Assembly: GCA_030765485.1 (NCBI GenBank) | Contig: JAVCCR010000015.1 | Span: 1 to 45,927 of the forward strand | From: Candidatus Gygaella obscura | GTDB taxonomy: Bacteria; Omnitrophota; Gorgyraeia; Gygaellales; Gygaellaceae | Length of the DNA stretch: 45,927 nucleotides | Direction of reading: 5' to 3' | In this document: positions 1 to 45,927 of the stretch, piece by piece | Position numbering within the stretch: the first letter of the stretch is position 1 | How the letters are laid out: each line of letters begins with the position of its first letter | The notes under the pieces: generated by a model | What the model was told of the DNA's origin: nothing | What the model saw: the letters and a program-made list of their open reading frames with translations, nothing else | Database searches by the model: none | Translations under genes and position numbers: made by a program

Positions 1-3000
1 AGCCGTGGTCTTGAGAAGAAACGGTGTGAGCCAAACTGGAAGGAATGTTTTCTTTTATCACATGGTATTGGTTGTTTTCTAAAGCCTCAAGGTAGTATTC
101 CTCGTCATCAAGATAACCGCCTATCTTATTCCATTTCCTTCCTTTGTGCTGTCCGCGAAATTTATCTCCTTGAATTTTTTTACGATATGAAGATGTAAAT
201 ATTTTTGAATCCCCGCCGTTGTCAGTTAAACCATAAAACTCTCCACTGATAACACTAACCTTAACTCCTTCCAAAAATAGCTCATTCAAAATGACAGCCG
301 GCACCCCAATGACTTCAAGCTCTAAGCTAAACAGCTCCTCTGTGTATTTTTTCTTTTTTTCTTTTCTTCTTTCCTCTTTCGCGTTTAATTCTCTTATGAC
401 AGTATCCTTAATTTGTCTTTCCCGCTCTAATTCTTCTGCTTCTTTGTATTCAAAGGCTTCTTCGATTAAACTGCCGCCGTTGTCGGATTTATCACTGAGC
501 CGAGAAATTGCAAACTTGTATTTCTTAATCAGTGCTTCCGCCTCAACCAATCTTGTTTTTAGATATAAAATTCCCCTTTGAAAATTATTATTTTTTCCTT
601 CAGATGCCATGCTTAATTCTACTTTAGCATTTAGCTCCTCTTTAAATCTTAATATAGACTCCTCTAATTTATCTATCTTCCTTTGATAATATTTCTTGGT
701 GCTCTCTACCTTTATCAATTTTTTTTGCTGTATATCAAAACAAAGAACAAGACGATTGCGGTTACTATGAATCTCTAGCATTTGCGCTTCATTAAAATTA
801 ATTTGTGTAGGCCCATCGAGCATATTATCTAGCATGCCATTATTGATTTCTGGAAAAAGAAAATCTCGATTTAAATCAAGCTGCCTATACCTATAAATCC
901 TATTATCTAAATAGCTTGCAACATGAAAATACTGATCAAAAACACTAAATCTAGATGATCCGTACAAAGAATTACGCTTTAAAGCAATACCTAATGGTGC
1001 ATTTATCGCTATTCTCTCTACGGCTTTTGTATTAAAATTCTTGCTTGATACGTAATTTTCAATGAAATTACTACTAATAAACGTTTGCTGAGTAACAACA
1101 CATCCTTGGAATCTTAACAATTCATCTTTTTTATTGCAGCCGTTGTCAAACTCTCTATTTTTGGAAAGCACATAACGCAAGAATTCAGATTCAACTTTAT
1201 CGTAAATATCAATTAATACGTTATGGCCATTTTTGTAATTCACCTGTCGTAATATTCTGAATAAATCATCGCGAAGAACATACTGCCAGGCTGCAGAATG
1301 ATATCCATAAGGGCTATCTAAAACATCTTTTAAGAAATCTATCCAGGAAACAAATTCAATCTTAATAACCTCTTCAGTATCAAAGGTACTTTCTAGTCTT
1401 TCTTTTTCAGCTACACTAATGATATAAAGATACAGATATGAAACTTCCCTATTGTAATCTTTTGAGGTTTTGTACAAAAATACTCCGTCTTCACGGTACT
1501 TAGGAATACCTATATGATTAACAAAGCCTTCTTTTTCAAAGAAACGACGCACCCTATAGAGCCTTTTAGCGTCAAGTGCTAAATTAACCTCTTCTTCCAT
1601 TTCCCTGGAAAGGCTCTGCTGCGCAGTCTCGCCTACGCCAAAATGTCCAGTTACAAAAAGCCCTTTGCGGTTATCTTTTCTGTGCTGAATAGCAACAAAT
1701 TTACCGTCTTCGGAAATTCCTAGAATATGATCTGTCCTATGCCAATCGCCATCTTTATGAATCATCTGTCTTGTCTTGGCAATACCTGTACGAAATAGAT
1801 TCTTTGGCTCAATTACATCGCAAACTTCAGAAATAAGTTTCCTGTGGTACATATCCACAAATGTTTCTTCTAAGATTCTACGACGAATACCTAATTCTTG
1901 ACTAAAGCTATCTAAATCAATTATGCCATCTTTAACTTTTTCAATAATCGCGGACTCGATAAATTTGGGATCTACAATAAACTCGTCTCCCCCGTTGTCT
2001 GATTTTGTGTTTATTTCTACCTGCTTACTATCATATTCATAAAAACTAATGTAGGTTTTAACTCTTGTGCTTTTACTTTTCAGACTACTTACTAATCGTA
2101 ACGGTATCTGTGACCTTAGATTATTGTTTATAATTTTTAAGCCGCAAGAAGCAATACTTTTAAAATCCTTACCCCATCCATTGACATTTCTTACAACACT
2201 CTTAGGGCTTATGTTTATAAAATCTACAAATACAACGCCGCCGGCTACTAATCTTTTCATAAATTCATTATATACTTTAACCTTATCAAGTATGTACTCA
2301 CTCACCCCTAATCCAAGCACTATAATATCAAATTCATCTTCTTCAAAATCTCTTAAGTCTCCATTTAAATCACATAATAAAGAGTGTTTACGAATATATT
2401 TTATATATCGCTCTGTAGATAAACTAAAAACTTCTTCACCTAATTTTTCCCTAAACCATTTTACTACTAACTGTGGATCCTCTTCGATTAGATTTTCTTT
2501 ACCTAAAACAAGTAATTCAACCCACTCTAAATAATTTCGTTTATCATTCTCAAGTCTATCCATTAAATCAAACACCTGATGACCCATACCTGGACCTACC
2601 CACAAGATGCGTGTTAATATGCTATGCATTCTATTTCTTTCTATCACTCCAATAATGTCTTTATATAGCTCATAACTAAAGAATTTATCTCTTTGTCTAA
2701 AACTTCTCATTGAATAGTTTTCAGGATAAGGATTTTCTTTGCCGCCGTTATCTTTATTGCCTAATTTTGTAAATTCATACAGTTCTTCAATAAAACTGTT
2801 GAGACAGCTGTCACTTTTAATATCTTTAGCCATCAACAAAGCTTTTAACCTTTTAGCTAAAAGCTTAGTAAATGTACTACTTGTTCTATTTTCTTCTACA
2901 ATCTGTTTAAAATTTCCTCTTAATTCTCTATCTATTTTTAAATCACGCCCGGGTTCATTTATACGGCTCTTAATATTATCGATTATCGTATTTACAATTT

Positions 3001-6000
3001 CAGCATATAAAGATGTTTCTTCTTTTGTTTTTTTATTTTCGCTACTGACATGGTTATTGCGCTTTCTGGAAACTTTATAAACTACCATATCTCCTTCTGG
3101 AATTTCAACAATATTTTCCTCCCCTACAAGTTCCTTCCATGCAGAAAGTCCGCTTGATAAAATATCAGTTGAAGTGATTTCACCAACATCACTAAAAATC
3201 CGCCATACGCGCTTCCAAAGCATTTCTCTTATGTCTGAACGGCTTCTCCAATCTTTTGCATACAAACCTAGAATAATAGCCCTATCTTGATTTGGCTGCA
3301 TACGATAAGAAAGAGCACCCACAATACGATCATTTTCAGTAGCAAAAAGACAGTCTTTTTCTAAATAAAGTCCGAAAACTCGCTCCCAATAAGGAACACC
3401 AGATCTTTCTTCATTGTTTAAGTGGCTAAATAGCTTTACCTGTTTGCTGCCGTTATCTCTAGAAATATTCTCGATAATATTATCTAACTCCTTACGGGCA
3501 CAATCGATATTTATAATTAAAATATCTAAACCTCTCTTCTCTAACTTTTGCTTTTTATATAAGTCCCAACAATAGTTCTCAAATTCCTTCAGAAATCTAT
3601 CAACAACCCTAACCACTTTTTTCTCGGTTAAGCATGCCTTAATCAGCCTTACATATCTATTAAGCATAAATCTTGAAGTTGCCTTAAAAGATTTGATTTT
3701 TAACAATTTTAAAGAATTAAAGTAAAGATATTCAAAAGCTCCGAAGATATTTCTTCTAGAGCAACCAAGAATCAAGCGTGCGTCTATTTTTGTACCTTCA
3801 AGACTTTTTGTATCTTGAGTTTTCTTACATCTGCCATTATCTAAAAGCCTACGCCTGAAACTCCAATCAACAGCAACTTTATTTAGACTATCTTCTTTTC
3901 CAGCAAGATAACTTTTTAAGTAATAATATTCATTTGAACTTAATCTCTTTCTAAACGCATTAAGCACATCATTGAATCTAGCAATAGTTTTTTTGATATT
4001 CTTTAATTCAGTATAAAAACTACCGCTAATCTGCCTTGAATCTCTTATTCTATTGAACTCATCTATCAATAAACCTAACTGTTCCTGACTACAAAGTTCT
4101 ATCCTTGTTAAAAATCCAACTCGCTGGATAAACTCTTCTGTAAAATCATAATAGAACCGTTTTAACGTCTGTAAGCGACTATCCTCAAACATAGCCGTGT
4201 ATATTATATAATTACGCCCATCACCGTTATCTGATTTCCCAGTAACAAGATAAGATAGATTTCCCACAAAAACGCCTTCGAATGTTTCGTACCCCTTAAC
4301 GATAGTTTCAAAACCCGATAAATTAAGATCATATTCCAACAAAGACTGAAACAACATATTAAAGTAAACTACTATCCCTTTTTTGCGCTGAGAAATATAT
4401 TCATTTAACAAAAACAATTCTCTTTCACTGATATTTCCTGCATTAAACTGCTCAACGCCTTTTGCTCGCTGCTGTTCAAAATTTACCTCCGATTTCCATG
4501 CCGGATATTCACGCAAACTAAATAAATCTTTTATTCCTAACCTTTCGCAAATATCTTTAATAATTACAGAGGTTATGTTTTGTTCAAAACAATAATCATC
4601 AAAATGAATCAGTTTCCCGCCTGGTTTAATTACCCTTAATAATTCTTTAAGTAACCGGTCTTGATCTTTAAAATAAGAAAAGGCTTCTAAATCCAACACG
4701 GAGTCAAAGCTGTCATTATTAAAAGGCAGATCGTACGCACAGGCTTGAGTAAATTTATCATTATTGTTATATTGTTTAGCATATTGTAACGCATTACAAT
4801 CTACATCTAAAGAAACCCAATTATCTCTGTAGGCAAATGGTGAAAGTAACCATAAAGTTCCTGCCCCAGAACCAATCTCCAATATCTTAGCATCCGCTTT
4901 TAAATATCTTTCAAAAATCAATTCCAGCTGTCTGACATATCCTGCTTGTCTAAGTATACGATGTTGGAAAAGACACTTATAATCCCAATAATGCTTATCT
5001 GCTGCAGTTTCATTTTTTGAGCCATTGTCATGATCCTCCCTAGATTTATCTTTTAGTGCTTTAAGTGTACCTATAATCAAATCCATAGCCTGCTTAGATT
5101 CTGGACCTTCAGCAACAAGCTTAACCTCTTCATTACCACCTATTCCCAAAGCTAATACGCTGATAACATCTTTAACATCGACCTCTTCTTTTCCTTTGAT
5201 AAGGAAAATTCTCGTTCTTTCAAAAATACGGGCTATTCCAGCAATTGCCTTAGCCGGTTCAATATGCACACCTAAAGGATTCTCCACGATCAAAGCTTTT
5301 TCTACTGATTGACGTTTTTTGCTTACATGTCTAGAATAAACTTTTCCTTTTATCTTTTCAGCAGAAGTAATAAAATAATGCTGGGTTCTTCCTCTTTTAG
5401 CTAAACGCAAAAAACTACCTAAAGTTAAATTATCTGGCAATCTTCCCTTTAGTTGTTCCTCGATAATCCCCCTGGTTTGCTCTGAGAAAATAAGCTTTTT
5501 CTTGTAATTCGCGCCAGCCGAAAGCAACTTATCTACAACCTTTATTATCTGGCTGACCAATAAATCGTTATAGTTTCCCCCTTTGGAATGGGTTAAATTC
5601 GACACAAACGCCCCTTCATCGACAGGCGACCCTAATCTTATAAACCCTTCGGATGAATGAATTCCTTCGCTTATAATGCCCCGTAAACAATAAGAATATT
5701 CTTCATCTAAATGATTGTCTCCTTTATAATTAATCCTCTTCAAATCAACATGCATGATAAGCCCGGGAAAAGCCTTGGCTTGAAAATGATCAGAGGAATT
5801 GATAAGAATAGCAAAAACCCCTGTCTTGTTATGAGAGTTGGCAGTATATATATCTAAACTCCATAAAAATCCTCGGGGATCACCGCAAATATTTAGAATG
5901 TTTATTATCGCATCGGGAACATGGCTGTCATTTCTGTAAACTACCCTTCCCGGATGGACTCTTTCCTTTAAATACTCCATGAAAAGAGGAATAAAAGAAT

Positions 6001-9000
6001 GAAAGTATTCGGTTTTAGAAGATTTATTAAATAAAAGCGCTAAGATTTCGATATATGAATACCAATAATCAAAACAATCTTTTTTAGAAAAAATATAACT
6101 TTTTAATTCTTCCATAGATTGTTTATCAAGACTCATTAAAACCTTTATAATGGCTATTCGGGCGTATTTATAACTACTCCAATAAAGAGCTTCTTCTAAC
6201 TCAAGAGAGGAATAACTTACCTTATCCATAGCCCTTAAAGTATCTATAAAACAATTGCTTAAATCATCCTGCATAGCAATTAATCTATTGGTAGCTATCT
6301 CCAATTTCCCTAAAGCTTCTTTTTGAATAGTTGCTCTAAAATCGCTACCTAACTTTCCTTCAGTAAGAATTAGCTTAATTAAATCTCTAACCTCTTTTTT
6401 ATCAAATTTAACCAAATTTAATATTCTTTCTTCTAGTCCGCCGTTGTCGCTTGAATTATAAAATAGACCTTCTAGAAACCTTCCCATCCCCTTTGGTCCT
6501 TCTAACATGATAAATTCTTCTTTATCTTTTGCAGAAAGGATTCTTTTATCACCTACAAATACAGGCAATACCCCTTTTATTCTAAGCATATCCAAATCAA
6601 CATAACTATCCCCGGCAACTAAAATCTGGCTATTGTTAATTCTTATATGATTATTTTGTTCAATAATTCTTTTTATTTTAAAAAGCGCATCTTTTTTGTT
6701 TCCTAAAGCAACATCAATTGCATTCGCAGAGCTATTGACATAAAGCTGGCCCTTTTCTTTTTCCAAAATATCACTAGCTAATAAAGAATTTCTTAATTTA
6801 TTGGCCAGCTCAAAAATAAAACTTTTTAAATATCTGTCCTCAAATACAGCAGTAACAGAAGCCTGTCTGCCATCACTAAACCAAATACTGTTTTTATTAC
6901 CAATTGTTACCTTGATCCCTTTTTGCTTGAAAAAATCAACTATCTGGTAAGAAAAGAATCTGCCGATTGCATCTTTAAATCTACTATCCATAAAAGCGCT
7001 TAAATTTTGGTCTATCAATAAATCTCCCTGCCCGTTATATCTTGCAAATACCGAACACTCGCTGACCATATAAAATGCCCCCTTAAGCATTTTTCTTTTT
7101 CGATAAGAAACTAAATCCAGCGCTCTTTTTTTTATGCTGGTTAATCTACCTGCGCTTATTATCGCTACAATTTTATTTAGCTCTATAAGCTTAAGGATAT
7201 TTTTAAACATCTTGGGTGTGATATTTTTCTTTAAAGGAACTAACGTGTCATCAAAATCAAAAACAAAAAGCTTCAAACCTCTTATAGGCCTATCAATTAA
7301 CCTCTTACAACCATTATCAGATTGTCTTACTTCGCGTTTTGAACTTTTCTTCTTAACAGCAGAAAGATAAAAATAGTTATCCCCTAAAAGATAGCTTGTT
7401 GTGATATTGCTAAATCCTATACCTTCAACAATACTTGCTAAAATCTCATCACTACAAGCCTGATAAAAATACTTCTCTGCCAAGCCAGCTGTATCAGTAT
7501 ATGTAGTGATGTGAAGCTTTCCTTCTGGTTTTAAAACCCAATAAGCCTGCCTTAAAGCTTTAGTAAAGTCCATGTGTCCGAGGCTTTCAAAAAACCCAAC
7601 ATTGCCAAAAGAATTATTTTTAAACGGTAAATATTCTCCATCGGCAACTACGGCGTTTAGATTTGTCGATTGTTTCCCAAGTAAAAGTAAATCACTTAAT
7701 ATGTCAATTCCTGTTATCTGCATGCCATATTCAGCGATCAACCCATGTTCCAGAATACCAAAACCTACCCCAACAGAAAGCAAACTCTTATCAGTTGCAT
7801 ATAGACCTATTCTTTCAACAATTCTTTCCCTTAAATAACTATCCGTGCTTAAAACGCTCATCCTCAAAACACCTAAGGCATTTAATCTTACCACCTGCCC
7901 ATTGCTAAATAACCGGTAAACATCCTGCAGATAAGCAATTCTTTTGTTATCACCTGCATTATCCAAAGATTGCTTTGCGTCTAAAAGACTACTATTTCTA
8001 TCAAGCTCAAAGCCTAAAGCATTTGCTTCCGGATAATAAGGTGTACTAAAATTACCTAATGCGCTTCGTATTTCAAATAAATATAAATCATCGCTTTTAC
8101 TTCTCGCTTCCTTTAAGGAAACAAATTTTCTTAAAGGAATAAACTTACCCTGTATTTTGGAAGCCAATGCAAATCTAAACCAATCATTGTACTCCATATC
8201 GATTTCACCAAATAATAGTAACCCGTCTTCTCGGAATTTAATGGAAAGTTGCTGGAGTGCGGTTTCTAAAACTTTACTGTCTTCACTATAGGGTAAAACA
8301 TTAAAAATGAAACCAATATCAAAATAACCATCTTTTGCATTAATACCTTTTAAAAGGTCATTTTCAAAATACTGAATATTACCTCGCGCATAATAATCTC
8401 TATAATTAATAAAATCTGGCTTTACACTCTGCTGTTTAGATTCGCTCATATTTAACCTATCATCAACAAAAACTTCTGACTGAGCTACTTTATTTTTTAA
8501 AAGCGCTTTCTTTTTATCTAAAAAATAAACTGTTTCGGGTATAAACCTATCAAAAGCCGATATATTATGATTTAACTGTGGATATCTATCTAAAAGCATG
8601 CTTGATAATTCTAATAGGCTTACCGGAGGAAAACCTAAACCTATAAAACAAATATTTTGTGATTTTGTTTGAAAGTTTATACCGAATTCTTCTTTGAATC
8701 TTTCTGAAAAAACAAGGTTATATATATACTGCATCCTGCCTTCATACGTATAAAATTCGTTATCGCCGTTATCTAAAACCTCTTTATTGTTTTTAAGCGA
8801 AACATTGTCTAAGTCTTTATTGTTTTTGTTGTTCGCCTTTGCAATAAGAATGGTACCGATTGTAACCAAGGCAATTCCTAACACAGGATAAATGCTTAGA
8901 AAACTAGAATCTACCCATATAACCGAAATAATAAATACAAATACAGGTGCGGCCTGTCTTAATTCAATCGTCTCTTTTAGAAAATTCAACTTATTAGGAT

Positions 9001-12000
9001 TAAAAAGTCTGAAGTATAATCCATCAAACGAAACTATTTTTTTGCCATTTTCCAAAACAATCTGTTTTTTATACAACTTAATAATATTGCTTTCTGCTCC
9101 ATTATCAGACAAGGTCTTTTCAAAAACATACCTTACGCTAGGAGGTCCAAGATGTATAATTGGAGCAAACCCAAATACTCTTCTTAAATCACCTCTTACA
9201 ATAAATCCCTCGTTCTTAAAAAGTTTGGTTATAGTTTTGTTATCAAGATATGTGAAAGGAAGCGGCATCCAGTCTCTGTTTTGATCAAGAAAATGCCCGA
9301 AATAATCCTCTAGGGCTAAAACTGATTTTTGTTCCTTAACTGAGAGCGCTAAAAATTGCTCTGTAATACTAAAACGGGAATCAAACCATTCCCCCTTTGG
9401 CCAAAAGATGCTGCTTTTGGTCTCCTTTAAAAAACTTTCAAAGAAATCGTCTTTCTCACCTAATATGTTTTCGATAACTGCAACCTGGCCACCTTTTCTT
9501 AAAACTCTTGCTGTTTCCTTTATTTGAGCGATCTGCTCATCCTCACTCATATGATGCAAACTCCACTTAAGAATGGCCAAATCAACAGAACCGGATCTAA
9601 TATCAATTGAAACGCTATCATGCTGTTTTTTATAAATCAACCTTCTATCAAATTCACAATCACCCTCTAAATAATCATTAACGTCGCAACCTATCACGCT
9701 AATATCTTCGATATCCCTTTTTAAAAAATCTTTGACTATTTCTCGGCCTAACGTATTTCTGCCACATCCTATATCAACTATTTTCCTTTGAAATCCAAGC
9801 AAGTCTTTAATAAAATGAACATTTAATAAGGAGTCTTTCTGAGATTTATATAATAATTCTAGATTATGCAAGGCATCAGGCCTCCAACTATCTTCGCTAG
9901 AATTAAAACCAAACTTCTTTGAAAATGCAACAGACGCCACTGCAGGATGAAGATGCTTTCTAGATGACAAAAAAGCAACTATTAAATAAGCAATCTGTTT
10001 GCTTGTTAAAAACTTGCCGTTACAATCCAATAAATTAAGCTTCTTACCTATATTATGATATTGGGTGATAATATCGGTATTGAGTCTTTGTTCTAAAATA
10101 TTTAAATAAACAGTTTTTACTTTCTCATCAACTAGGCCTAATAAAGGATTGAAACCAAAATTATCTTCTCCTCCGTTATCATTTTTACATCTTAACTCTT
10201 CTTCCTTCAATACAGATACTATTGTATTAATGATCCCATTAAAATCAGCCTTGTTGGGTACAACACCATTTACCAAAGAAACTATTTTCTCACTTTCTTT
10301 GTAGTTAAATAGAATATATGAGGAAAGTACCACGATCGGAAGACTAGAGCTTACTTCACGAATCTTTTTTATAAGCGTCACGCCATCCATTAAAGGCATT
10401 TCGATATCAGTCAAAACTAAATCAATTGTCCTGCCTGATTGGATTATATTAAACGCCTCTAAGCCGTTACTACAGGCAATAACTTTGGTATTAACTCCTA
10501 TCCTTTCAAACCACTTCTGCAATAAATCATGCAAAAATACAGCATCTTCAGCAAACAATATACTCTTTCCGTTAAGAATAGAAACATCTTTCTGACTGTT
10601 GCCATTATCCTTGTATGCTTTTTGAAGGTATGACGTGCTAATGCGCTGTAAGGCTACTATCAACTGAGGTATCTGTAAGGTTTTTAATTTTAGCATCCAG
10701 TAAAATGAAGCGATAAAGAATATCATGCTTGAAACACCGGCATACACTAAGTTCACTCCCCCAAAGAGCATAGAGTAACCCAGATTGAAAGAAAAATATC
10801 CAATCCCTTCGACCATCATCCGTTTTGCTAAATTTCTAATACGAAACTGCGCCCGCTCAAAACGAAGAAGCCCATTAGTCTTTTCTTTAAAGCTTCCGAA
10901 CTCTGCACCAAACAAGCCGTCACCTGCGATATAGCTGTATTCAGACTTTCTACCGTTGCACCTTACAGCTTCCGAGTTATCTGATTTGCTGCAAGACACT
11001 ACCTCCTTCATCGGCTGTTCCTTAAACGAAGCGTCGCCGTTGTCATGAGATTCATAATTTATAAAATACTTAGCAACATCGAATTCACATAATGACTCAA
11101 GTTCTTCATTGGTATATGCAAGGCTAATTTCTCTTAAAACACTCCTGAAAGAATCTGAACCATGCACTTTATTTTCAAGAACACTAACACTTTTTGTTAA
11201 TCCTCCTTTTTGAATCTTATAATTATTCCAACGAATTCCATATTTATTTCGTAATGTACCTTTTTCTTTACCGAAAGTAGCACCGATTACCTTTCTAAAT
11301 TGAAAAAAAGCATTTTTATCCCCTTTCAATATAAGTAAAGTAACCTTCCCTGACATTATATATGCTAGTAAACCATCCACAAATTTACTACCTCGATGTT
11401 CTTTATAAAATTCTTCTGCAAGCTCTTCAGAAAATCCTTGAGACCTTTCAGTAATTGATAATACCTCAAGCCCCCTATCTTCTAAGTCACTAATTATTTC
11501 TGTTTCGAGTCCTTGAGCATCAGGCTTTAACATTGCAAAGGCTATAGATTTAGTTGTTAAATCCTTCTTACTAACTTTTCTACTCATTTTTAATATGGAT
11601 GAAGGGAAATTCAATTTTTTGGATGTATCGCTTCCGCCGTTGTTAACGCCTGCAGCTTCAATAATATAATTTGCATAAGTCGTTGATATAGTGTTTGGTA
11701 AGCCGTCCTCATACCCATCTTTTCCTGACTTAGCAACATAATAAGTAATAAGTTTTATTCGCTCAGGCTTTACTCCAAGCGTTTTAGCAATATATTTTTT
11801 AACCTTACCCTCTGTTAATTTTTCTCCCGGATATACAAAAGAATGAATTTCTTGTTTTCCATTAAGGTTAATTCTACTGCCGTTGTCGCGATTTTTACTA
11901 TAATCAACAATCCTACCGCTGCCGTTATCATGATTGCGTTTTATAGACACCCTGTAAATCACCATGTCCCCTTCGGGGATTTCAACAATATTCTCTTCCC

Positions 12001-36000: not shown

Positions 36001-39000
36001 CGCGTAAAGAATTTACAAGCTTCTTAGCATCTTGTGAATTTCCGGCATAATCTGAAAGCGTAGCTATTAATCGACCTTCTCCATCTTTTAAGCTAACGTT
36101 AATATCTCTTAATCCGATTGGTTTTAGACTACTATTGGCTAATAAGTTATGCTTTTGTTCGTAGTTACTATCTTCTTTTGATACTGAAAGCTTAATTTCC
36201 TCTATAGGAATAAATATACTTTCGACAGTCAAGAATGCCATCAATCCAAAAGTATCTTCTTTTCCAAGGTAAATAGATGCGCTATTTATAACCGTATTGT
36301 TTTCTCGGTTAATACCCATACCTAAAGAATAGTGTCCTACGCCATCATTATCAAAATCAAACATCAATGTTGAAGAACAATCGGACTCTCTTTGAATAAA
36401 GACATCACCGTATAAATTGCGCCAGCTGGTACGGGAAATTCTTCCTAATCTCTTGCCATTTTTATCATAAAAGATTACGATGTTGTCTGATATAATGTGG
36501 CGCTTAGCTAAATCAAATTCCTTAAGTATACCGATACCTACATCATACTCTTTCTGTCCATTGTGACTTTCTTTATAGATAGTGGTTGAAAGAGACGGAA
36601 CTTCATATGCTTTAAGAAGCGCTACCCTGTAAGGAATCGCAACTTTAATGCCTTCGATTTCAAAATCTTTAAAGTAATGAAATGCTTCTTTTCTTTCAAT
36701 ATGTACAAAACTGGGCAATCTTAAATTACCATTTTCGTCTTTTAAATTACTAAACTGCTCTATTGCCTGAGCTAAATTATTCTGAACGAATATATATGCA
36801 TCTTGATTGCCATTTACCTTCAAATGTAATCTTCCTGTCGGGATTCTATCAAACTCTTCTCTTAACTCAATAAAACATACTGGTTTTTTGTCAAAATCAA
36901 GAACCAATGTCTTGGTATCATCAATTGCATAAGATAAAGCTGATACGTTTCTAATAGGCTCCTCATCCATAGCAAAACGCAAACTCAAAGTATTGCCTTT
37001 ATATTCAAATCTAACCCTTATAAAACCACGCTCAATTTTAACAACCGGCATTTCATCTGATTCGAATGCCTGGATTGAATCAACAATTATACCTTCTTTA
37101 ATATCTAGTGTGGCAATTTCGGCCCAATTTGCTTCTTTGAAGTTTGGCAATACTGCTTCAGGCAATAATTCTACTATTTTACTGGCAGCCTGATCTATTT
37201 TTTCACGATCAGCCTGTAAAAGATCAGTATACTCTAATGAAATTGATCGAGAAACCTTATAAACAGCCTCATAATTATAGTCGCTAGACTCAACTATATC
37301 AGCCACATAAGAATCATATCCTTTGTCTGTCGGTATCTCAAAGAAGCCTTCATTGTACTTAATTCTGATTTCTCTTTGTAACTGATCAATACCAAAGGTT
37401 CTTTCAATAACTCCTTCTGTATCTATTTGTCTTACAAAATCAAAAGCTGTGTTTTTATCTGCTATGGCAATTTTTCTTTCACCAGAGTTAACAGTCCAAC
37501 CAATCTGTTCGGTAAGATTAAAATTGCTATCAAAATCCTTATAAATTCTTTCAACGGTTTCAGCTCCAGTTAAGCCTAAGCTGGTTCTGATGTCTTCTGT
37601 TAATACACTTGATGTCTCAGCGAGTCTAACTCTAACATTAACAACATTACCTTTCTTATCCATAAACGGCTCAACTATTGCCATACCCCAGGCATCAACG
37701 CCAACATAACTCACAACTTTGCCTTCTCTAGTGCTTATTTCATGAAGCTTAAATTTCTTGGTTGCATCGTGCTCTTTGGTAACAACCTCACGAATACCAA
37801 TATAGTTGGATTTATGGGTCTGGGTTAATGCGCCATCTTCGGCTATACCAAATATAGTTTGAGTAGCAATATCCAAGACTCTTATTTTAGCTAAATCACG
37901 ATTTGGATAATAGTGACGTACTGGCTGACCCTTAACATTAAGCTCAATCAGGCTTGCTCCGTTATAAATACTTGCACCTAATTCAACACGTAAGCTAATA
38001 TTGTCTTTTTCAACCAAGGAAGCCTTTGCAATCCACTTGGCCTTTCCATCAACAGAGACAAACAATAGGTTATCTTTATAGACACCCTGTAAGATTGCTT
38101 CACCACTTGAAGTGATCTCAACAGGATAGAATCTATTGTCTTTTTCTTTTACAAAATGCATTAGAGGAAGTAAATTAGTATATAATAAAGTTTCTTCTGC
38201 TTTAGTATTTGGTTTACCATCAACCAATCTATCTACAGGAAAATCTAACAACTTTATCTTATCACCCCCATCAGGCAATGTGTTGTTGTTAGTATCATTA
38301 AACCACCAGAACTTACCGTCTTCTTTTACCTGTTTGGATGAGAATCCTGAGCTTAAAAGATCGCTCTTCGTTAAGTATGTTGTAACGGTATTTCTTGCGG
38401 TATCTGGATAGCTTACGCTGGCAACTATTCTTAAAGCTTTCTTTGGTAATGAGGTAACTACTTCAACATCATTATCTAAGGTATAGATTTTACCGTTATA
38501 ATTCCAATAATAATTATTATCAGCTCTATAGAGATTATCGGCTAAAAATGCATAGCCTCTTCTTAATGCCCATACAGGAAGCTGAATAAACTTATCTTCA
38601 TCTGTCTTATAGACATATTGCTTAAATCCGAATTCAGCATTCCGTATACTTACTACCTTGACCTTACCTGTTTTTATGTTTTCGACGAATTCAGCTTCTG
38701 TTAAATACACGACTTTACCATTACCAGTTGTGGTTAAGAACTTGTCCTTTGATAGCGTATCCAACAACTCAAATCCGGCTTTACCGACTTTCCAAACAGC
38801 TCTTTTAACTTCTTTGCCGTCTCTGGTAAAATTCCTAAATTCAAAACTATAAACCGATTCACCAATTGCATTTTTCTTCTCTTTTCCATCTTCCTTAACT
38901 GCTATTGAATAGAAGTTACCTGAATCAATTAAAGTTTTAATTTCTTTTTTAGTTAAATCGAATCTACCTTCTCCCTTAACGAATATTGGACCAATACCGA

Positions 39001-42000: not shown

Positions 42001-45000
42001 CTTCAGAAACCTTTAAATTTCTCTTAGCGGAGGCGACTTCGTCTTTATTGTCTTTTATGGCAAGATTTATCTTTGATTTCTGGAGGGAAATTTCTTCTTC
42101 TAACTCAAATTGTCTGTATATTGCGCGTAGTCTTTCTAACTCTAAAGACAACCTCAATACCTCTTTTGATTTATCTAATGCCTTATCAAACTGCGTCTCC
42201 TGTGATTTTCTTAAAGCATTTATTTCGGCTTCGGTATCTTTATATCTTTTTGCGACTTGTTCTTTGGATTTGAACTGTTTATTTGAAAATACAGTTTCAT
42301 GCTTTACTGCTGTATCAATGGCGGGAATAATTATTTTTTGGCCGACTAAAATAATATCTGGATTTTTGATTGTGTCCTGATTGGCCTGATAAATTTCCTT
42401 CCATAACCTTGCATTTCCAAATTCTGCTTTGGCAATGAAACTTAAGGTATCGCCTTTTTTAACGATATATTCTTTAGCTGAAGGGGGAGCGCGCGGATTT
42501 ATTATAGAAGTAATTTCTTGATTCACCGGCTCTTTAGACTGATGAGAAACTATTGCTGTCTTAGTATTGTTAACGATTTTCTCAGCTCTAACAACTGCTG
42601 CTTCAGTATTAGTTTTTTCTACTTTTTTGACAACTGTTCTCTGAACTGGAACCGTAGAAGTTGGCGGAGAAACTGGTTTATCTAACGACTTTTGTTTTGC
42701 CCATAAGGCTTTTAATGCTTCATAGGCCTTCTTGGGAGTTCCATCTATTTTTACAATACCGAAATATTCTTCGTTCCCGAAATTATCAAAAGGAACGCTG
42801 AAATAACTTCCACCTTTATTTTGCTCTAAAATGTTGCCCGATTTCCACCACTCATCCTGCCAAGTCATAAAGGTTACGCCTAAAGTTTTTCCTTTAATAT
42901 TATTCCAGATCTTTACAACTGCCCTTGCCTGAGCTTCTTCATTAACCTTGCCTTTATTATTATCAAAAGAATCAGCACCGGTTTCGGATAAATACATCGG
43001 CTTATTGCTGATAGCTTTCCAATCAGCCAACGCACTTGCCGGATCAGTATGTCTATATATATTCATACCCCAGACATCTACTGAAGGGCACATCTCAACT
43101 ATTTCTTTAGTAGGTACTTCTCCGTGTGCGGTTGAAACAGGGTGATTATTGTCAATCCTATGGGCTACTTGTGCTGCCTGCTCTAATATCCTATACCAAT
43201 TATTAATATCGTTATTAATCCATTCCGGATGATCTCGGAATAAAAAGTTGTATTCATTACCAAACTCCCACATAAGTATTGCAGGGTGATTTTTATACTC
43301 TTCAATATAGCCCCTATAAGTACGTCTTTTAATATCTGCTCCATAAGAATATCTGTCGTCATAATTAGGAAATCCTACAATCACCTTTATCCCATAACGG
43401 CTAAATGCATTTAATAGGTCTTCTTCCGGTGCAACATATGTACGCACAGTATTAATACCGGCTTCCTGCATTTTCTTTATATTGCCTTCGCCCACAGTAG
43501 CTAAATCTAGTACTAAATCGCGTCTATCTTCGCCCTTTTCTACGGTTGAGAGGGTAACGCCCTTAATTTCAAAAGGCTCTCCCTCAACAAACAATCTATT
43601 GTCTTTTATTGAAACGACTGGGATTTCTGCGGCGGATACTTCACTTACTAAGGACAGTTTATTTAATTCTGATACGGCTTTTGACCAGACAAAACGGGCT
43701 TTTTCACTTATAGATTCCAACACAGGAGGAGATCTTGATCTTAAACTATATTTAACATTGTCTTTTCTAATCTCATTATCCCTATTAATTATTCTAGCAT
43801 TAGATTCTAATTTAAAAACACTGTTAAAGTTTATATCAAGGATACCGTTGCTATTGGTTCTCAATTTTCTATTCTTTATTGCTTCTTTTAAAGATACTCC
43901 TCTTTCTTGAGTTGCCGGTTCTTCAGTTGTCGGCAAGAATGAACCCTGAATCTTGTAATACCACTGTATCTCATTGGGCAATCTATTATGATAAAGCATA
44001 CCGACAACAGAACCTTTAAACGGAACAAATAGTAATGCCCAAGCAAATTTTTGCTCGTCACCGGATGAAAAGATTCCCATTCTTGAAATGTTCAATAACT
44101 CTCTATATGAATAGCTGCTATTTTGAGCAAAATCAACCACAAAATCTATCTCAATCGAAGGAAGAGTCATCTTTAAACTTAAAACCGTAATAAATCTATC
44201 CATATCGACCTGTGGCTTAACCTTTTCTACGGCATCCACAACACTCCAGTAATAACCACTGACCGTTGGCATCCACCAATAATCACCGTCAATATCGTAA
44301 GATTGTGCATATTCAAAATCTGTTAAAACTTTTTCAAAAGCATAATCAGCCTGTCTATATTCATAGAAAGCCCCATGAACCAAAGCCCTTAGATAATAAG
44401 CTGTGCCTACATCGTTTAACGCCCAGTAGTCTTCAGCAAACTGCGGATCAGTAATATCTGGGAAATCTGTTAAGCCCTCTGTCTGAGAAAGCGCCGCTTC
44501 TTCATGCAACACAATCAATTTATCCAGATATTTTCCAGTATGGAAATATTTATCATTATCGTACTCAGACCAAGCCATTCTAAGAAGCAATTCGGAAGAA
44601 TAATCACCATAGTCTATAGCGTAAAATATATAATCCAATCTTTCCTTTATGGCATTTCCTATACTGTAATAAAGTCCTCCTCCTGTAGCATCAGCAAACT
44701 GTGCATTCTGCATACATGGCTTTGTCGGTAAAGGAATCTCCATAGTAACTTCGCTTGCCTCTGCATATCTTGTATCAAGATATGCATTCACATCGAGAAT
44801 ATCAGCATATTTTGTTACTGCTTCGTTTAAATCACCTTGTGCTTCAGCAATAAGCCCTGACAAATAATACCCAGTTGCCACGTCATTAAAGGCCCAGCTG
44901 TTAACTAAATCAGCATCCCCAATCAAATCGCCTTCACCATCACATAAACTTGCCATATCCATTAAGGCTGCGTCTTCATAAAGCCTGTTTAATACACTTA

Positions 45001-45927
45001 TATAAATATTTGCCCGGTCATAATCATAATAATTGTATCTATTCCATGCCTGTGAAAGTAATTCATAAGACTCAACAACTCCATCATTATTTGTATCAAA
45101 TACTAATTTCGAATCATTAAGCTGCATAATCGCATACTGTGAAACAATTCCCAATTTTACATAGAAAACAATCGATTTTCCACCAAGCACTGATTTTAAT
45201 TCCATCTGTGCATACTCAAAGCTGCCTATAGTATCATCTTGATCATCTCCTGTTATCTGTTTATAGTATTCAAGCGCCTGCTCTTTATTATCTTGGAGTT
45301 CTGCAATCTTACCCAACATATAATAAGCCGTACCGACATAATTTAGCGCCCAGCTATTCTGCCAAAATTCTTTTCTGGCTGTTTCTTCTTCTCCATCATA
45401 AATACCGTTGCCGTTAACATCAACCGGCGCCTCAAGATAATCATCCATATCAGACATTTGTTCTTGGGCATAACCGTTATATAAACCAATCATGATCTTT
45501 GCATAAATAGCTGCCTTTTCATAGCTTTGTTCAACTTCCTGACCGTTGATATCTTTACCTGTATAATATTCAAATATCTTAGCACTTATATAACCAGCAC
45601 TTAAGTCGCCAATGATAATATCGTTATTAATAATCTCATCTACAAAAGGCAATAATTTCTCACAGATATCTCCCAGCTTAATATAAATAGTAAACCCATC
45701 GTATTCCCCTTCACTCTGAGCATAATAATAATTATCGATAACTGTATTGAAAGCTTCTTTTGCCGCTATGCTATCTTTATTCTGGATATAAATAAGCCCC
45801 TCAACAAAATAGGCACTTCCTACGGAATTTAAAGCCCATGTATTAGCCCAAAATGCAGATTTTTCTTCTTCGTCAATTACACCATTACCATTTGTATCTT
45901 CCGGGGTAGCCGGATAATCACTTAATA
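1..45927 (-). CDS. Giant multidomain protein (internal fragment, at least 15,308 codons visible; start and stop outside window)
   Basis: Hand translation of the minus strand in one frame (codon starts at p mod 3 = 2) gives continuous domain-like protein with no stop found. Landmark codons across the window are all in this frame. The ORF track contains no long minus ORF and no ORF in this frame, as expected if edge-truncated ORFs are not listed. No intergenic gap was found. Confidence 0.93.
1370..1830 (-). other. Domain: Nudix hydrolase-like
   Basis: GHFGVGETAQQSLSREMEEEVNL fits Gx5Ex7REUxEExGU with N in place of the last G (box at about 1577-1651). Confidence 0.75.
2230..2650 (-). other. Domain: methyltransferase-like
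   Basis: HSILTRILWVGPGMGHQVFDLMDRLE...EDEFDIIVLGLGVSEYILDKVKVYNEFMKRLVAGGVVFVDFINISP. Confidence 0.55.
3060..3460 (-). other. Domain: acetyltransferase-like module, copy A
   Basis: DNGSKQVKLFSHLNNEERSGVPYWERVFGLYLEKDCLFATENDRIVGALSYRMQPNQDRAIILGLYAKDWRSRSDIREMLWKRVW...EENIVEIPEGDMVVYKVS. Confidence 0.65.
4540..4910 (-). other. Domain: SAM-dependent methyltransferase-like
   Basis: AKILEIGSGAGTLWLLSPFAYRDNWVSLDVDCNALQYAKQYN...AYDLPFNNDSFDSVLDLEAFSYFKDQDRLLKELLRVIKPGGKLIHFDDY. Confidence 0.8.
5050..5305 (-). other. Domain: HPr-like phosphocarrier
   Basis: EKALIVENPLGVHIEPAKAIAGIARIFERTRIFLIKGKEEVDVKDVISVLALGIGGNEEVKLVAEGPESKQAMDLIIGTLKAL; GxHxxPA retained. Confidence 0.85.
6540..7290 (-). other. 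Domain: HAD-superfamily phosphatase-like
   Basis: LKLFVFDFDDTLVPLKKNITPKMFKNILKLIELNKIVAIISAGR ... ILVAGDSYVDLDMLRIKGVLPVFVG. Confidence 0.8.
7390..7880 (-). other. Domain: SAM-dependent methyltransferase-like
   Basis: SLLSVGVGFGILEHGLIAEYGMQITGIDILSDLLLLGKQSTNLNAVVADGEYLPFKNNSFGNVGFFESLGHMDFTKALRQAYWVLKPEGKLHITTYTD. Confidence 0.75.
8220..8680 (-). other. Domain: methyltransferase-like (degenerate)
   Basis: QNICFIGLGFPPVSLLELSSMLLDRYPQLNHNISAFDRFIPET...YFDIGFIFNVLPYSEDSKVLETALQQLSIKFREDGLLLFGEID. Confidence 0.55.
9440..9800 (-). other. Domain: SAM-dependent methyltransferase-like
   Basis: RKIVDIGCGRNTLGREIVKDF...DVNDYLEGDCEFD...SVDLAILKWSLHHMSEDEQIAQIKETARVLRKGGQVAVIENI. Confidence 0.8.
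10190..10600 (-). other. Domain: response-regulator receiver (REC)
   Basis: GKSILFAEDAVFLHDLLQKWFERIGVNTKVIACSNGLEAFNIIQSGRTIDLVLTDIEMPLMDGVTLIKKIREVSSSLPIVVLSS. Confidence 0.9.
11105..11565 (-). other. Domain: nucleoside diphosphate kinase
   Basis: KSIAFAMLKPDAQGLETEIISDLEDRGLEVLSI...AEEFYKEHRGSKFVDGLLAYIMSGKVTLLILKGDKNAFFQFRKVIGAT...KVHGSDSFRSVLREISLAY; includes the active-site xVHGSDS motif. Confidence 0.88.
11930..12335 (-). other. Domain: acetyltransferase-like module, copy B
   Basis: DNGNKQTKLFRQLNDEERSGISYWERVSGLYLKRDCLLVTENNHIVGVLSYRPQPNHDRVITTGLCAKQWRKRSDIREMLWHRAW...EENIVEIPEGDMVIYRVS. Confidence 0.65.
15470..15800 (-). other. Domain: response-regulator receiver (REC)
   Basis: DNGQILIVDDREIWRKLIAESLADYGFDSVEASNGQEAVELLKTENFNVATVDLEMSFVNGIDLVS. 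Confidence 0.85.
15822..15890 (-). repeat. 69-bp in-frame palindromic element, copy 1 (encodes LRQTKLLGSILSVAGGGSNAGAA)
   Basis: + strand begins gctgcgccag and ends ctggcgtagc (10-bp inverted repeat, 1 mismatch). Same length and same reading frame as copy 2. Confidence 0.85.
15920..17500 (-). other. Domain: GT4 glycosyltransferase, trehalose-synthase/phosphorylase (TreT)-like
   Basis: VWHINSSAAGGGVADILQSLIPKSNALGVKMRWFVMGG...KAKFIWRIHIQPDIADSDAYISRKVWNFLKEF...VFQNARFDPWKDPTGVIEAW...STKEGFGLAVSGAALHELSLIVSGVGGI. Confidence 0.85.
17523..17591 (-). repeat. 69-bp in-frame palindromic element, copy 2 (encodes LRQLKILDPTLTVAGGGSNAGAA)
   Basis: + strand begins gctgcgccag and ends ctggcgcagc (perfect 10-bp inverted repeat). 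The first 34 bp are identical to copy 1. Confidence 0.85.
18080..18720 (-). other. Domain: HD-type phosphohydrolase-like
   Basis: HCFSHSLEVAYIALLIAHHKNYTYESTLEIITAALLHDFQPR: H...HD spacing. Confidence 0.7.
19540..20070 (-). other. Predicted transmembrane segments
   Basis: IKIIIAGLITLVTTFVTIAGASIFLPL; VSALGLANILAISLTIFNTLITVF; LYLEYVMLFGFIYFSATQFMLFLA; PLYLIGSICGLYLISIPI. Confidence 0.75.
20990..21790 (-). other. Domain: glucose-6-phosphate isomerase, cupin type
   Basis: LPPALSGNEYTKTFGHYHDPVAMPEIYQVVSGEVLWIMQYCKTP...KASTGDIAIMLPGYGHVSINLSETEPLVMADWLT: cupin GPI motifs (GHYH, E in PEIY, PGYGHVSIN). Confidence 0.85.
21795..22049 (-). CDS. Embedded 84-aa small protein in a different frame (MLNLHELTITKVQQGSTGLFVQAKFPSWHYEYSIHVLPSGEIKGRTTTGNWVNL...)
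   Basis: ATG at 22049, stop TAA ending at 21795, in frame p mod 3 = 0. A strong Shine-Dalgarno AAGGAGGTG lies upstream. Its amino-acid composition looks more protein-like than the overlapping giant-frame translation. Confidence 0.6.
   Translation of the reverse strand: MLNLHELTITKVQQGSTGLFVQAKFPSWHYEYSIHVLPSGEIKGRTTTGNWVNLTEETTFLIRRKFISFLQQNGLYNLFNRNFN
22055..22063 (-). promoter_or_regulatory. Shine-Dalgarno sequence AAGGAGGTG, AGGAGG core 7 nt from ATG
   Basis: + strand cacctcctt at 22055-22063; start codon complement cat at 22047-22049. Confidence 0.75.
22110..23150 (-). other. Domain: (alpha/alpha)-barrel glycoside-hydrolase-like
   Basis: HSEKMLNWLINRQSAATGLVECDACLCYTYDQALSAMAF...YGQGILTGPMGYLLRIA...YHSTEQNFAAFSGLDAF...WDGERFWASETDYRYIADLYTLG. 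Confidence 0.6.
23150..23250 (-). other. Internal Tat-type signal peptide with lipobox
   Basis: DNGDNKGLSRRNFLILSALATAGIVTGCSIVPDPEPED: twin Arg, hydrophobic stretch, VTGC lipobox; in the giant frame, with no start codon immediately upstream. Confidence 0.75.
23990..25760 (-). other. Domain: alpha-glucan phosphorylase-like (GT35)
   Basis: IFIFQMEYGLSMKY...IGQLAKLLMAGGLGSFKPDLVRGWHE...RRFVQYKCPDFLIDVL...AVIFIGGRRFD...IIFINNHNTFTSWLIQQGTDFGGMLSWQDMEAGPTSFGNAQSNASPVFATDDG parallels phosphorylase motif order. Confidence 0.65.
26090..26620 (-). other. Domain: Nudix hydrolase-like (IPP-isomerase-like N-terminal pattern)
   Basis: IPRDLAHAIGTWHRSAFMILFDKYGKMLVQVRSDSKKFFPG...SGHLGLSVDYIDGVMKETEEEVFDRQI. 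Confidence 0.7.
26990..27950 (-). other. Domain: HAD-superfamily phosphatase (sugar-phosphatase/PMM-like)
   Basis: DIVIFADKDGTIAEVSEPIS (DxDGT) ... IIIVTGA ... LLIGFGDGTNDYEFLRLI (motif IV). Confidence 0.75.
27970..28840 (-). other. Domain: guanylate-kinase-like P-loop module 3
   Basis: AKFAILSGPPGGGKGAVQDEFKKLYGELCSKFILFHTRNIRKGEKMAVNYHYRNSEHLLRLEKEGKIITAYINNQLQGMAVTTF; P-loop landmark near 28381. Confidence 0.75.
28840..29680 (-). other. Domain: guanylate-kinase-like P-loop module 2
   Basis: AKLAIFSGPPGGGKGVVWEKFEELYGDFIEKFVLIHTRNIRENEKMGVNYHYRNEEPLATLVEEGKAITALINNQPQGLAVRTF; P-loop landmark near 29257. Confidence 0.75.
29680..30500 (-). other. Domain: guanylate-kinase-like P-loop module 1
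   Basis: AKFVLFSGPSAGGKGEMWNACKEMYPELFRKF; P-loop landmark near 30061. Confidence 0.7.
31180..31380 (-). other. Proline/lysine-rich low-complexity linker
   Basis: KKPQGPPNNNGSINQTVPPKSTPPAKSDAPKATEAKQSKPVDSETKKTEEVIPQAQPRSPPADSSD. Confidence 0.8.
31390..35110 (-). other. Domain: membrane-embedded GT2 / cellulose-synthase-like glycosyltransferase
   Basis: Hydrophobic helices (IIWSSVVVIGVGILGVTFVLPLALWVV; SAAIIVSIVFGGYIFMITYPVAGLAVSLTGAAFVVF; YNLLIFLFAFFFTFTPFAYLSVPLLFVA) around DDAVIVNLDRDHFYYPADFFLLPFIGHKF and HAFYGPGIVRWRTMAMWGVYLSNIEDTAAAHQAMVKGYRGEYTPWISLGRPREM. Confidence 0.65.
35200..41900 (-). other. Long beta-rich region of unknown family
   Basis: Repeated short hydrophobic/charged strand-turn patterns with G-K, D-G turns (e.g. 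DGKPNTKAEETLLYTNLLPLMHF, DGRYYVNVAIGNETYKAYVSEKEG). No family recognised. Confidence 0.5.
41950..42310 (-). other. Domain: coiled coil
   Basis: KQFKSKEQVAKRYKDTEAEINALRKSQETQFDKALDKSKEVLRLSLELERLRAIYRQFELEEEISLQKSKINLAIKDNKDE...: charged heptad-like helix. Confidence 0.7.
42325..42480 (-). other. Domain: LysM peptidoglycan/glycan-binding motif
   Basis: EYIVKKGDTLSFIAKAEFGNARLWKEIYQANQDTIKNPDIILVGQKIIIP is a canonical LysM pattern. Confidence 0.93.
42700..43625 (-). other. Domain: glycoside hydrolase, GH2-like TIM barrel
   Basis: NRLFVEGEPFEIKGVTLS...NIKKMQEAGINTVRTYVAPEEDLLNAFSRYGIKVIVGFP...NHPAILMWEFGNEYNFLF...PMYLSETGADSF resembles GH2/GH5-type (beta/alpha)8 domains with a WEFGNE acid motif. 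Confidence 0.8.
44000..45927 (-). repeat. WALN/TPR-like protein repeats with interspersed DxNxDG Ca-loop-like motifs (N-terminal part of visible protein)
   Basis: Recurrent FWANTWALNSVGSAYF / FWQNSWALNYVGTAYY / NSWAFNDVATGYY / DYWALNDVGTAYY. The TGGGC of the WAL/WAF core lies near 45834, 45348, 44892 and 44421, so spacings are 162, 152 and 157 codons. DTNGNGVIDEEE, DVNGNGIYDGEE and DTNNDGVVES precede repeats. Confidence 0.75.

Follow-up and report, generated by a model that had tools for sequence, protein, structure and literature searches.

Giant open reading frames (ORFs) are already known in the Omnitrophota. The giant protein of Velamenicoccus archaeovorus has 39,678 residues (Seymour et al. 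2023, PMC10066038), and larger ones, with a maximum of 85,800 residues, come from the West-Roberts et al. 2023 preprint as cited in PMC12057145. These ORFs are a standing puzzle: no function is assigned to the bulk of their sequence, and the use of the chain is unknown. The locus analyzed here resembles them in running for more than 20 kb in one frame, in its transmembrane segments and in its phylum. The ORF fills 45.9 kb of the window, the whole 45,927-nucleotide stretch of Candidatus Gygaella obscura DNA under study, and 72.5 kb once neighboring contigs are joined, and a crude hydropathy method finds 37 peaks, which satisfies the expectation of several transmembrane helices. The scarcity of annotated domains, a description rather than a definition of the Omnitrophota giants, does not apply, as many Pfam domains lie in the tail. 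In contrast to the giants described before, annotated enzymes and regulators are abundant in this tail, which carries a conserved separator. The new element is the architecture. We interpret the window as the middle of a giant Omnitrophota gene for a polyprotein-like chain in which the separators, or marks, are probable cutting sites; cutting is inferred, and we hold the interpretation tentatively, at a little under even confidence.

Reading frame and contig joins

When the reverse complement was machine-translated in the frame that spans 2-45925, it yielded 15,308 codons and 0 stops, which bears out the claim of the preliminary description that a single uninterrupted minus-strand ORF crosses the window. 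The other five frames contain 630-2,003 stops, with a longest open run of 238. The window is all of contig C33 in a genome of 1,384,577 bases (33 contigs, 94% complete). It shares 51 bp at its low end with the start of contig C16 and 114 bp at its high end with the end of contig C10; both matches are exact, and neither overlap sequence has a further match anywhere in the genome. Neither join interrupts the frame, and the earlier proposal that both ends of the ORF lie outside the window also stands. The joined C10-C33-C16 frame has 24,193 codons from stop to stop, with the first ATG at codon 12 (24,182 residues from this Met) and a terminal TAG. The C33/C16 join is supported because one ORF on a contig of the sister species (G001; the genome of the window is G000) has homologues of both sides. 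Both joins rest on the overlaps, and the C33/C16 join also on this homology, with no read data behind them. The largest other ORF in the genome has at most 4,326 codons, and the remaining genome looks ordinary. A Tad/Flp pilus locus lies directly upstream of the gene; downstream of the gene are an ABC solute-binding protein and a protein of GH2/TPR type that is related to the giant's own core.

The TAG that ends the ORF (C16:5562-5564) is located in a linker after a methyltransferase module. Beyond it the same frame remains open for 1,445 codons with the same separator motif and the same kind of module, and finishes in HEAT repeats and a tail; the first Met of this stretch is at residue 61, within a module. 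Since TAG terminates 198 ordinary ORFs in this genome, the tail TAG is a normal stop and recoding was rejected. The TAG may mean that the gene is divided in two at this point, or it may be a nonsense change. Ribozymes or tRNAs within the ORF were also rejected, as no tRNAs or Rfam families were found in the window.

In the sister species, from the same genus, two homologous contigs are open over their full length (6,680 and 2,800 codons). Aligned blocks share ~67% amino-acid identity, and dN/dS is 0.07-0.25 in all blocks with unsaturated dS. The open homologous contigs and the low dN/dS therefore identify the ORF as translated, constrained coding sequence and not a chance frame.

Modules and the Asp-Asn-Gly mark

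The joined chain has two kinds of territory. Residues 1-4,628 and 6,383-12,448 contain no Asp-Asn-Gly (DNG) and carry TPR, GH2-like and LysM domains together with a transmembrane core that other giants share, and residues 4,629-6,382 and 12,449 to the end consist of modules bounded by DNG. The features of the window, in the order of translation, are as follows.

2..45925, minus strand: stop-free ORF of 15,308 codons, residues 7049-22356 of the joined stop-to-stop frame
43946..45925, minus strand: TPR repeats running on from C10, which also ends in TPR (Pfam TPR_2, TPR_8 and TPR_6 above cut-off)
42506..43945, minus strand: GH2-type TIM-barrel glycosidase-like domain (PF02836, 39.7 bits)
42323..42469, minus strand: LysM domain (PF01476, 39.6 bits)
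31502..37504, minus strand: transmembrane core (hydropathy), common to the giant ORFs of order-mates
27959..32485, minus strand: repeated P-loop (guanylate-kinase-like) domains (PF00625), an internal repeat
215..29725, minus strand: 34 DNG separators, out of 50 in the ORF
25916..26986, minus strand: DNG module, NUDIX, isopentenyl-diphosphate-isomerase-like (PF00293, 36.6 bits; NCBIfam)
23255..25915, minus strand: DNG module, alpha-glucan (glycogen) phosphorylase fold, 887 residues (AlphaFold and Foldseek)
22094..23254, minus strand: DNG module, Tat-type lipoprotein signal LSRRNFLILSALATAGIVTGC a few residues past the DNG, then a domain
20684..21790, minus strand: DNG module, cupin-type glucose-6-phosphate isomerase (GPI; PF06560, 89.3 bits)
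19472..20683, minus strand: DNG module with transmembrane segments (hydropathy), also in the sister species
18014..18877, minus strand: DNG module, HD-type phosphohydrolase-like, weak (PF01966, 20.1 bits, below the cut-off of 22)
15905..18013, minus strand: DNG module, trehalose-synthase-type glycosyltransferase (TreT_GT1, 140 bits, and Glycos_transf_1)
15797..15904, minus strand: DNG mini-module of 36 codons containing a 69-nt stem-loop repeat
15398..15796, minus strand: DNG module, response-regulator receiver (PF00072, 47.1 bits)
11930..12334, minus strand: DNG-to-DNG module of 135 residues without an assigned family; 3 copies, 71-73% identity
11045..11887, minus strand: DNG module, nucleoside diphosphate kinase (NDK; PF00334, 79.6 bits; KPD and NxxHGSDS intact)
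10181..10609, minus strand: DNG module, response-regulator receiver (PF00072, 52.9 bits)
9107..10180, minus strand: DNG module, SAM methyltransferase (PF13649/PF08241)
7319..8773, minus strand: methyltransferase module (PF08241, 51.5 bits)
6449..7318, minus strand: DNG module, HAD-type phosphatase (PF08282)
5030..6448, minus strand: DNG module with an HPr-like domain at its end (PF00381, 52.5 bits)
4232..5029, minus strand: DNG module, SAM methyltransferase (PF08241, 59.3 bits), duplicated DNG to DNG further downstream
2753..3457, minus strand: DNG module, second copy of the 135-residue family
1148..1999, minus strand: DNG module, NUDIX hydrolase with intact NUDIX box (PF00293, 31.9 bits)

The enzyme modules are delimited by the conserved DNG tripeptide, a feature that the preliminary description missed. 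Its impression of an unusual mixture of cytosolic enzymes and secreted modules holds: Pfam places NDK, NUDIX, GPI, HPr and TreT beside TPR, GH2 and LysM, and response regulators and methyltransferases are also among the matches. A Pfam histidine kinase lies on C10. The transmembrane core received no assignment from Pfam, NCBIfam or PDB sequence searches; inspected by eye only, it resembles a membrane glycosyltransferase, and its homologues occur in 30 of the 128 genomes of the order, mostly in long ORFs. The tail modules appear complete, with Pfam domains near full length, and are under purifying selection; their activity can only be inferred from these alignments. The phosphorylase-fold module was modeled by AlphaFold with a pTM of 0.81 and matched 4bqf in Foldseek (E of 1e-17); its DNG lies in a low-confidence end that precedes the folded domain. 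The receiver at 15398..15796 begins one residue past its DNG (DNG-Q-ILIVDD).

The 69-nt stem-loop repeat has two copies (15822-15890 and 17523-17591), both in frame in the giant ORF, and no other copy in the genome. The genome has two NDKs, an ordinary gene (C10:66908-67339) and the diverged copy in the giant ORF (window 11102-11542), and an NDK within a giant ORF is also present in another genome of the order (G007). Recent copying of the genome's own genes was rejected as a general source of modules, as the matches are only distant.

The joined frame contains 50 copies of DNG compared to 5.6 expected, and the first in the window is at 29717-29725. The genome's other 1,176 proteins are not enriched (57 versus 68.5 expected). 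Its excess score is 64.8; across 200 random concatenations of the other proteins, no tripeptide scored above 18.9. The mark is encoded by 13 different spellings in this genome, and of 23 aligned junctions where both sisters have DNG, 19 differ in synonymous codons. Residues flanking these 23 junctions are 0.22-0.43 identical, compared to 0.67 overall. The 23 junctions were selected for the presence of DNG in both sisters; independently of this set, nearly every DNG inside a BLASTP block has a DNG partner in the sister. Sequence comparison thus indicates that DNG is conserved as a peptide and not as DNA. Marks sit in hydrophilic stretches and are followed mostly by Asn, Gly, Asp or Ser and then by Lys-rich positions; one falls within the histidine-kinase ATPase motif. 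Mark codons lean mildly toward C-ending forms (GATAACGGC) relative to ordinary DNG (p of 0.002-0.05), which hints at a partly shared DNA ancestry of the marks. Translational re-initiation at TAATGG inside GATAATGG was rejected: the ATG is out of frame, AAC occurs in half of the marks, and there is no enrichment of Met or of a ribosome site plus start after DNG.

The mark also coincides with the borders at which the sisters diverge. Of 27 BLASTP block edges, 14 lie no more than 8 residues from a DNG, compared to 1.6 expected, an outcome reached in 0 of 20,000 simulations. Most modules are either nearly whole in the sister or missing altogether; the GPI module is missing exactly from one flanking DNG to the next, and module duplications likewise extend from DNG to DNG. 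As judged from these alignments, modules are gained and lost as whole DNG-to-DNG units. At joined-frame residues 19702-19707, in the window part, the sister has DNG and an inserted module of ~248 residues where this genome has DNAG, a decayed or modified mark.

Tat-type signals follow separators in window 22094-23254, in the L005 region on C10 and in the giant ORF of order-mate G031. They stand 4-10 residues after marks, three in this genome (one found by pattern search, two by eye) and three in G031 (L151-L152). Free homologues of the domain at 22094..23254 mostly have N-terminal signal peptides. TatC is absent from this genome and its sister, G031 has no clear TatC, and TatC scores above cut-off in 17 of 127 genomes of the order. 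The idea that modules undergo functional Tat export in the producer was rejected in the absence of TatC in both sisters, and the signals may therefore be inherited relics.

N-terminal domain, order-mates and competing readings

The ORF begins on C10 with a strongly conserved signal/anchor, SxFxxWI..A....FLPEQVA.A. A Peptidase C39 domain comes next (PF03412 at 32 bits, above the cut-off of 22). In the PDB the closest chain is a double-glycine protease domain, a weak match (E of 0.35). Of 31 sequences, all 31 have both Cys131 and His219; near the column expected for the third catalytic residue (Asp), the residues are Asp, Glu or others. The C39-type domain occurs in 62 of 128 genomes of the order, often in large ORFs and, where aligned, behind the same signal. 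Signal and domain together (L012:17567-18403) are 90% identical between the sisters versus ~56-78% for tail modules.

The preliminary description had assigned the ORF to the known giant-gene type of Omnitrophota, and the relatives fit this assignment: those from named genomes are mostly Omnitrophota, and order-mate ORFs extend to 57,756 codons. Independent assemblies of the order contain ORFs of 57,756, 57,099, 48,300 and 42,913 codons and many others; the 42,913-codon ORF comes from a 2-contig assembly and has a short run of N inside. The 57,099-codon ORF, in G031, has a tandem repeat of QKEVLGGKIDE at the contig start (G031:C6:1-170); the repeat lies inside the ORF, which is therefore open and longer.

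The mark differs among lineages. The top over-represented short peptide in G031 is [SA]SP[VLI] (SSP, 135 versus 10.9), G055 uses SSP, G007 uses SSS (103 versus 11) and G103 uses DGG, often behind Lys or Arg (46 versus 6.1). Identical codons surround many marks in G031 and G007. The examined stretches of G062, G032, G056 and G015 have no over-represented mark. The phosphorylase-fold module stands behind DNG here, behind SSP[VL] in four loci (L179-L182) and behind LDNGG in L184, and an Omnitrophota homologue (L185) is a free protein of 905 residues with a signal peptide. Among the named genomes that carry this module, five of seven loci belong to Candidatus Omnitrophota and the other two are labeled Planctomycetales and uncultured. 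Downstream of the phosphorylase-like module in L180 and L181, the peptide MSSAV.NLSTF.AP..ILFYLP...GWWGKIASEGSDR.AEGF follows SSPL and is conserved between the two genomes; it looks like another gene translated in an unusual frame.

The chain begins with the signal/anchor and the C39-family cysteine-peptidase domain, continues into the large envelope core (TPR, GH2-like, LysM, transmembrane) and ends in a tail of ~40 compact DNG-bounded modules under purifying selection; its processing is inferred. The marks would be recognized as peptides, most likely as protease sites, and cutting during or after translation would release the modules as separate proteins. Shuffling would be tolerated because any module placed in frame with a mark would work. 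The chain's own C39-type domain may be one candidate cutter, which we do not claim. A role for C39 as the general cutter acting on double-glycine sites, appealing where the marks are DNG[G] or [KR]DGG, was rejected. SSP and SSS are unlike double-glycine sites. The [KR]DGG-marked genome (G103:C26, L161-L163) has no match to the C39-type N-terminal domain, and the SSP lineages keep C39; because the marks vary while C39 is conserved and G103 shows no match to it, C39 is not the general cutter.

The strongest competitor, a genuine possibility that we nevertheless rate as doubtful, is an uncut, envelope-anchored string of beads in which the marks are short linkers spacing the domains, their constancy due to a structural function or to a preference for one linker throughout the lineage. 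The V. archaeovorus giant protein was seen by peptides and proposed to be a coat (PMC10066038), the marks lie in hydrophilic, low-confidence stretches, and the Ser/Pro-rich marks of other lineages are typical of linkers. A plain linker, however, could do without an exact tripeptide whose flanks and codons vary freely, and cytosolic NDK, HPr and NUDIX modules and buried N-terminal signals fit an uncut chain poorly. Cutting is favored over a mere linker because the mark is exact while its surroundings vary freely, because the modules include soluble enzymes and because signals that work only at an N-terminus stand just behind marks. The marks could also be footprints of a DNA process, sites of in-frame module insertion or exchange with little function in the protein, an explanation that we regard as unlikely. 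Whole modules are gained and lost at marks, duplications run from DNG to DNG, identical codons occur near many G031 and G007 marks, and the DNG codons are biased toward GATAACGGC. The 13 spellings of the 9-nt mark and the synonymous differences in 19 of 23 sister pairs instead show selection on the peptide, which is not expected of a DNA footprint, and protein-level conservation of the mark beyond that of neighboring residues is seen for two species.

Two further explanations carry much less weight. Export of the giant toward a prey or host cell, with enzymes and regulators released there, is very improbable, even though Tat-type module signals occur in genomes without TatC, the chain has an N-terminal signal/anchor, Tad pilus genes lie directly upstream and a predatory or parasitic lifestyle was proposed for Omnitrophota giants (PMC10066038). 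The modules look like housekeeping proteins with no recognized toxin among them, relic Tat signals account for the same data, and so large a chain of folded enzymes would be hard to export. We give almost no credence to an artifact, whether from misjoined contigs, an incorrect genetic code or a series of pseudogenes. The assembly is of metagenome type with 33 contigs, the joins rest on 114- and 51-bp overlaps, and there is one in-frame TAG; yet the window alone is one stop-free contig, dN/dS is far under 1, and the independent assemblies of the sister and order-mates contain the same kind of ORF, including the one of 42,913 codons (2 contigs, short N run).

The cut polyprotein remains our preferred reading. 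The occurrence of one module behind differing marks and as a free secreted-type protein speaks for it, as does the position of DNG in a low-confidence end of the predicted model. Against it, there is no evidence for cut products or protease activity, both of which are only inferred; one DNG lies inside the histidine-kinase ATPase motif, the Tat signals are possibly relics, and the C-ending codon lean hints at shared DNA ancestry of the marks. The fullest form of the proposal, in which ~40 enzymes and regulators, or ~5% of the genome, are made as one polyprotein cut at a lineage-specific signal and swapped as cassettes, is conceivable but rather unlikely. The separators parse the giants into a list of where modules start and end, which are common and how they are gained and lost, and they allow a direct test of polyprotein use for ordinary enzymes in bacteria. 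If cutting were shown, this would be a new kind of system, a cellular bacterial polyprotein.

Comparison with known systems

In the literature searched, we found no description of the separator system or its lineage-specific forms, of the conserved N-terminal C39 domain, of module turnover between separators, or of bacterial polyproteins for ordinary enzymes; this is weak evidence of novelty, as preprints and most subscription journals lay outside the search. The terms linker, peptidase and C39 are absent from the text of Seymour et al. (PMC10066038). Pfam scans detected no condensation, adenylation, ketosynthase or carrier domains of NRPS/PKS megasynthases.

Rickettsia palindromic elements are short stem-loop repeats inserted in frame in coding sequence. 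The 69-nt repeat is a similar in-frame stem-loop, with only two copies here, both in this gene. Peptidase C39, the double-glycine leader peptidase, is comparable in the Pfam match at the ORF N-terminus and the invariant Cys and His; unlike in C39 systems, no ABC transporter domain was found adjacent, and the marks are DNG, SSP and DGG rather than a bacteriocin leader. Polymorphic toxins with autoprocessing peptidases are likewise large modular secreted proteins with N-terminal or internal peptidase domains, and C39-like domains occur among them (PMC3482391), whereas the modules here are metabolic and regulatory and not C-terminal toxins.

A further parallel is with viral and engineered polyproteins, in which one frame encodes several complete proteins with a short repeated peptide at every border. 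The repeated border peptide of this ORF is conserved at the peptide level, as is characteristic of a polyprotein. In contrast to the viral and engineered cases, this is a cellular bacterial gene of tens of kilobases in which cutting is inferred and no protease is assigned, and its module order and content differ between sister species.
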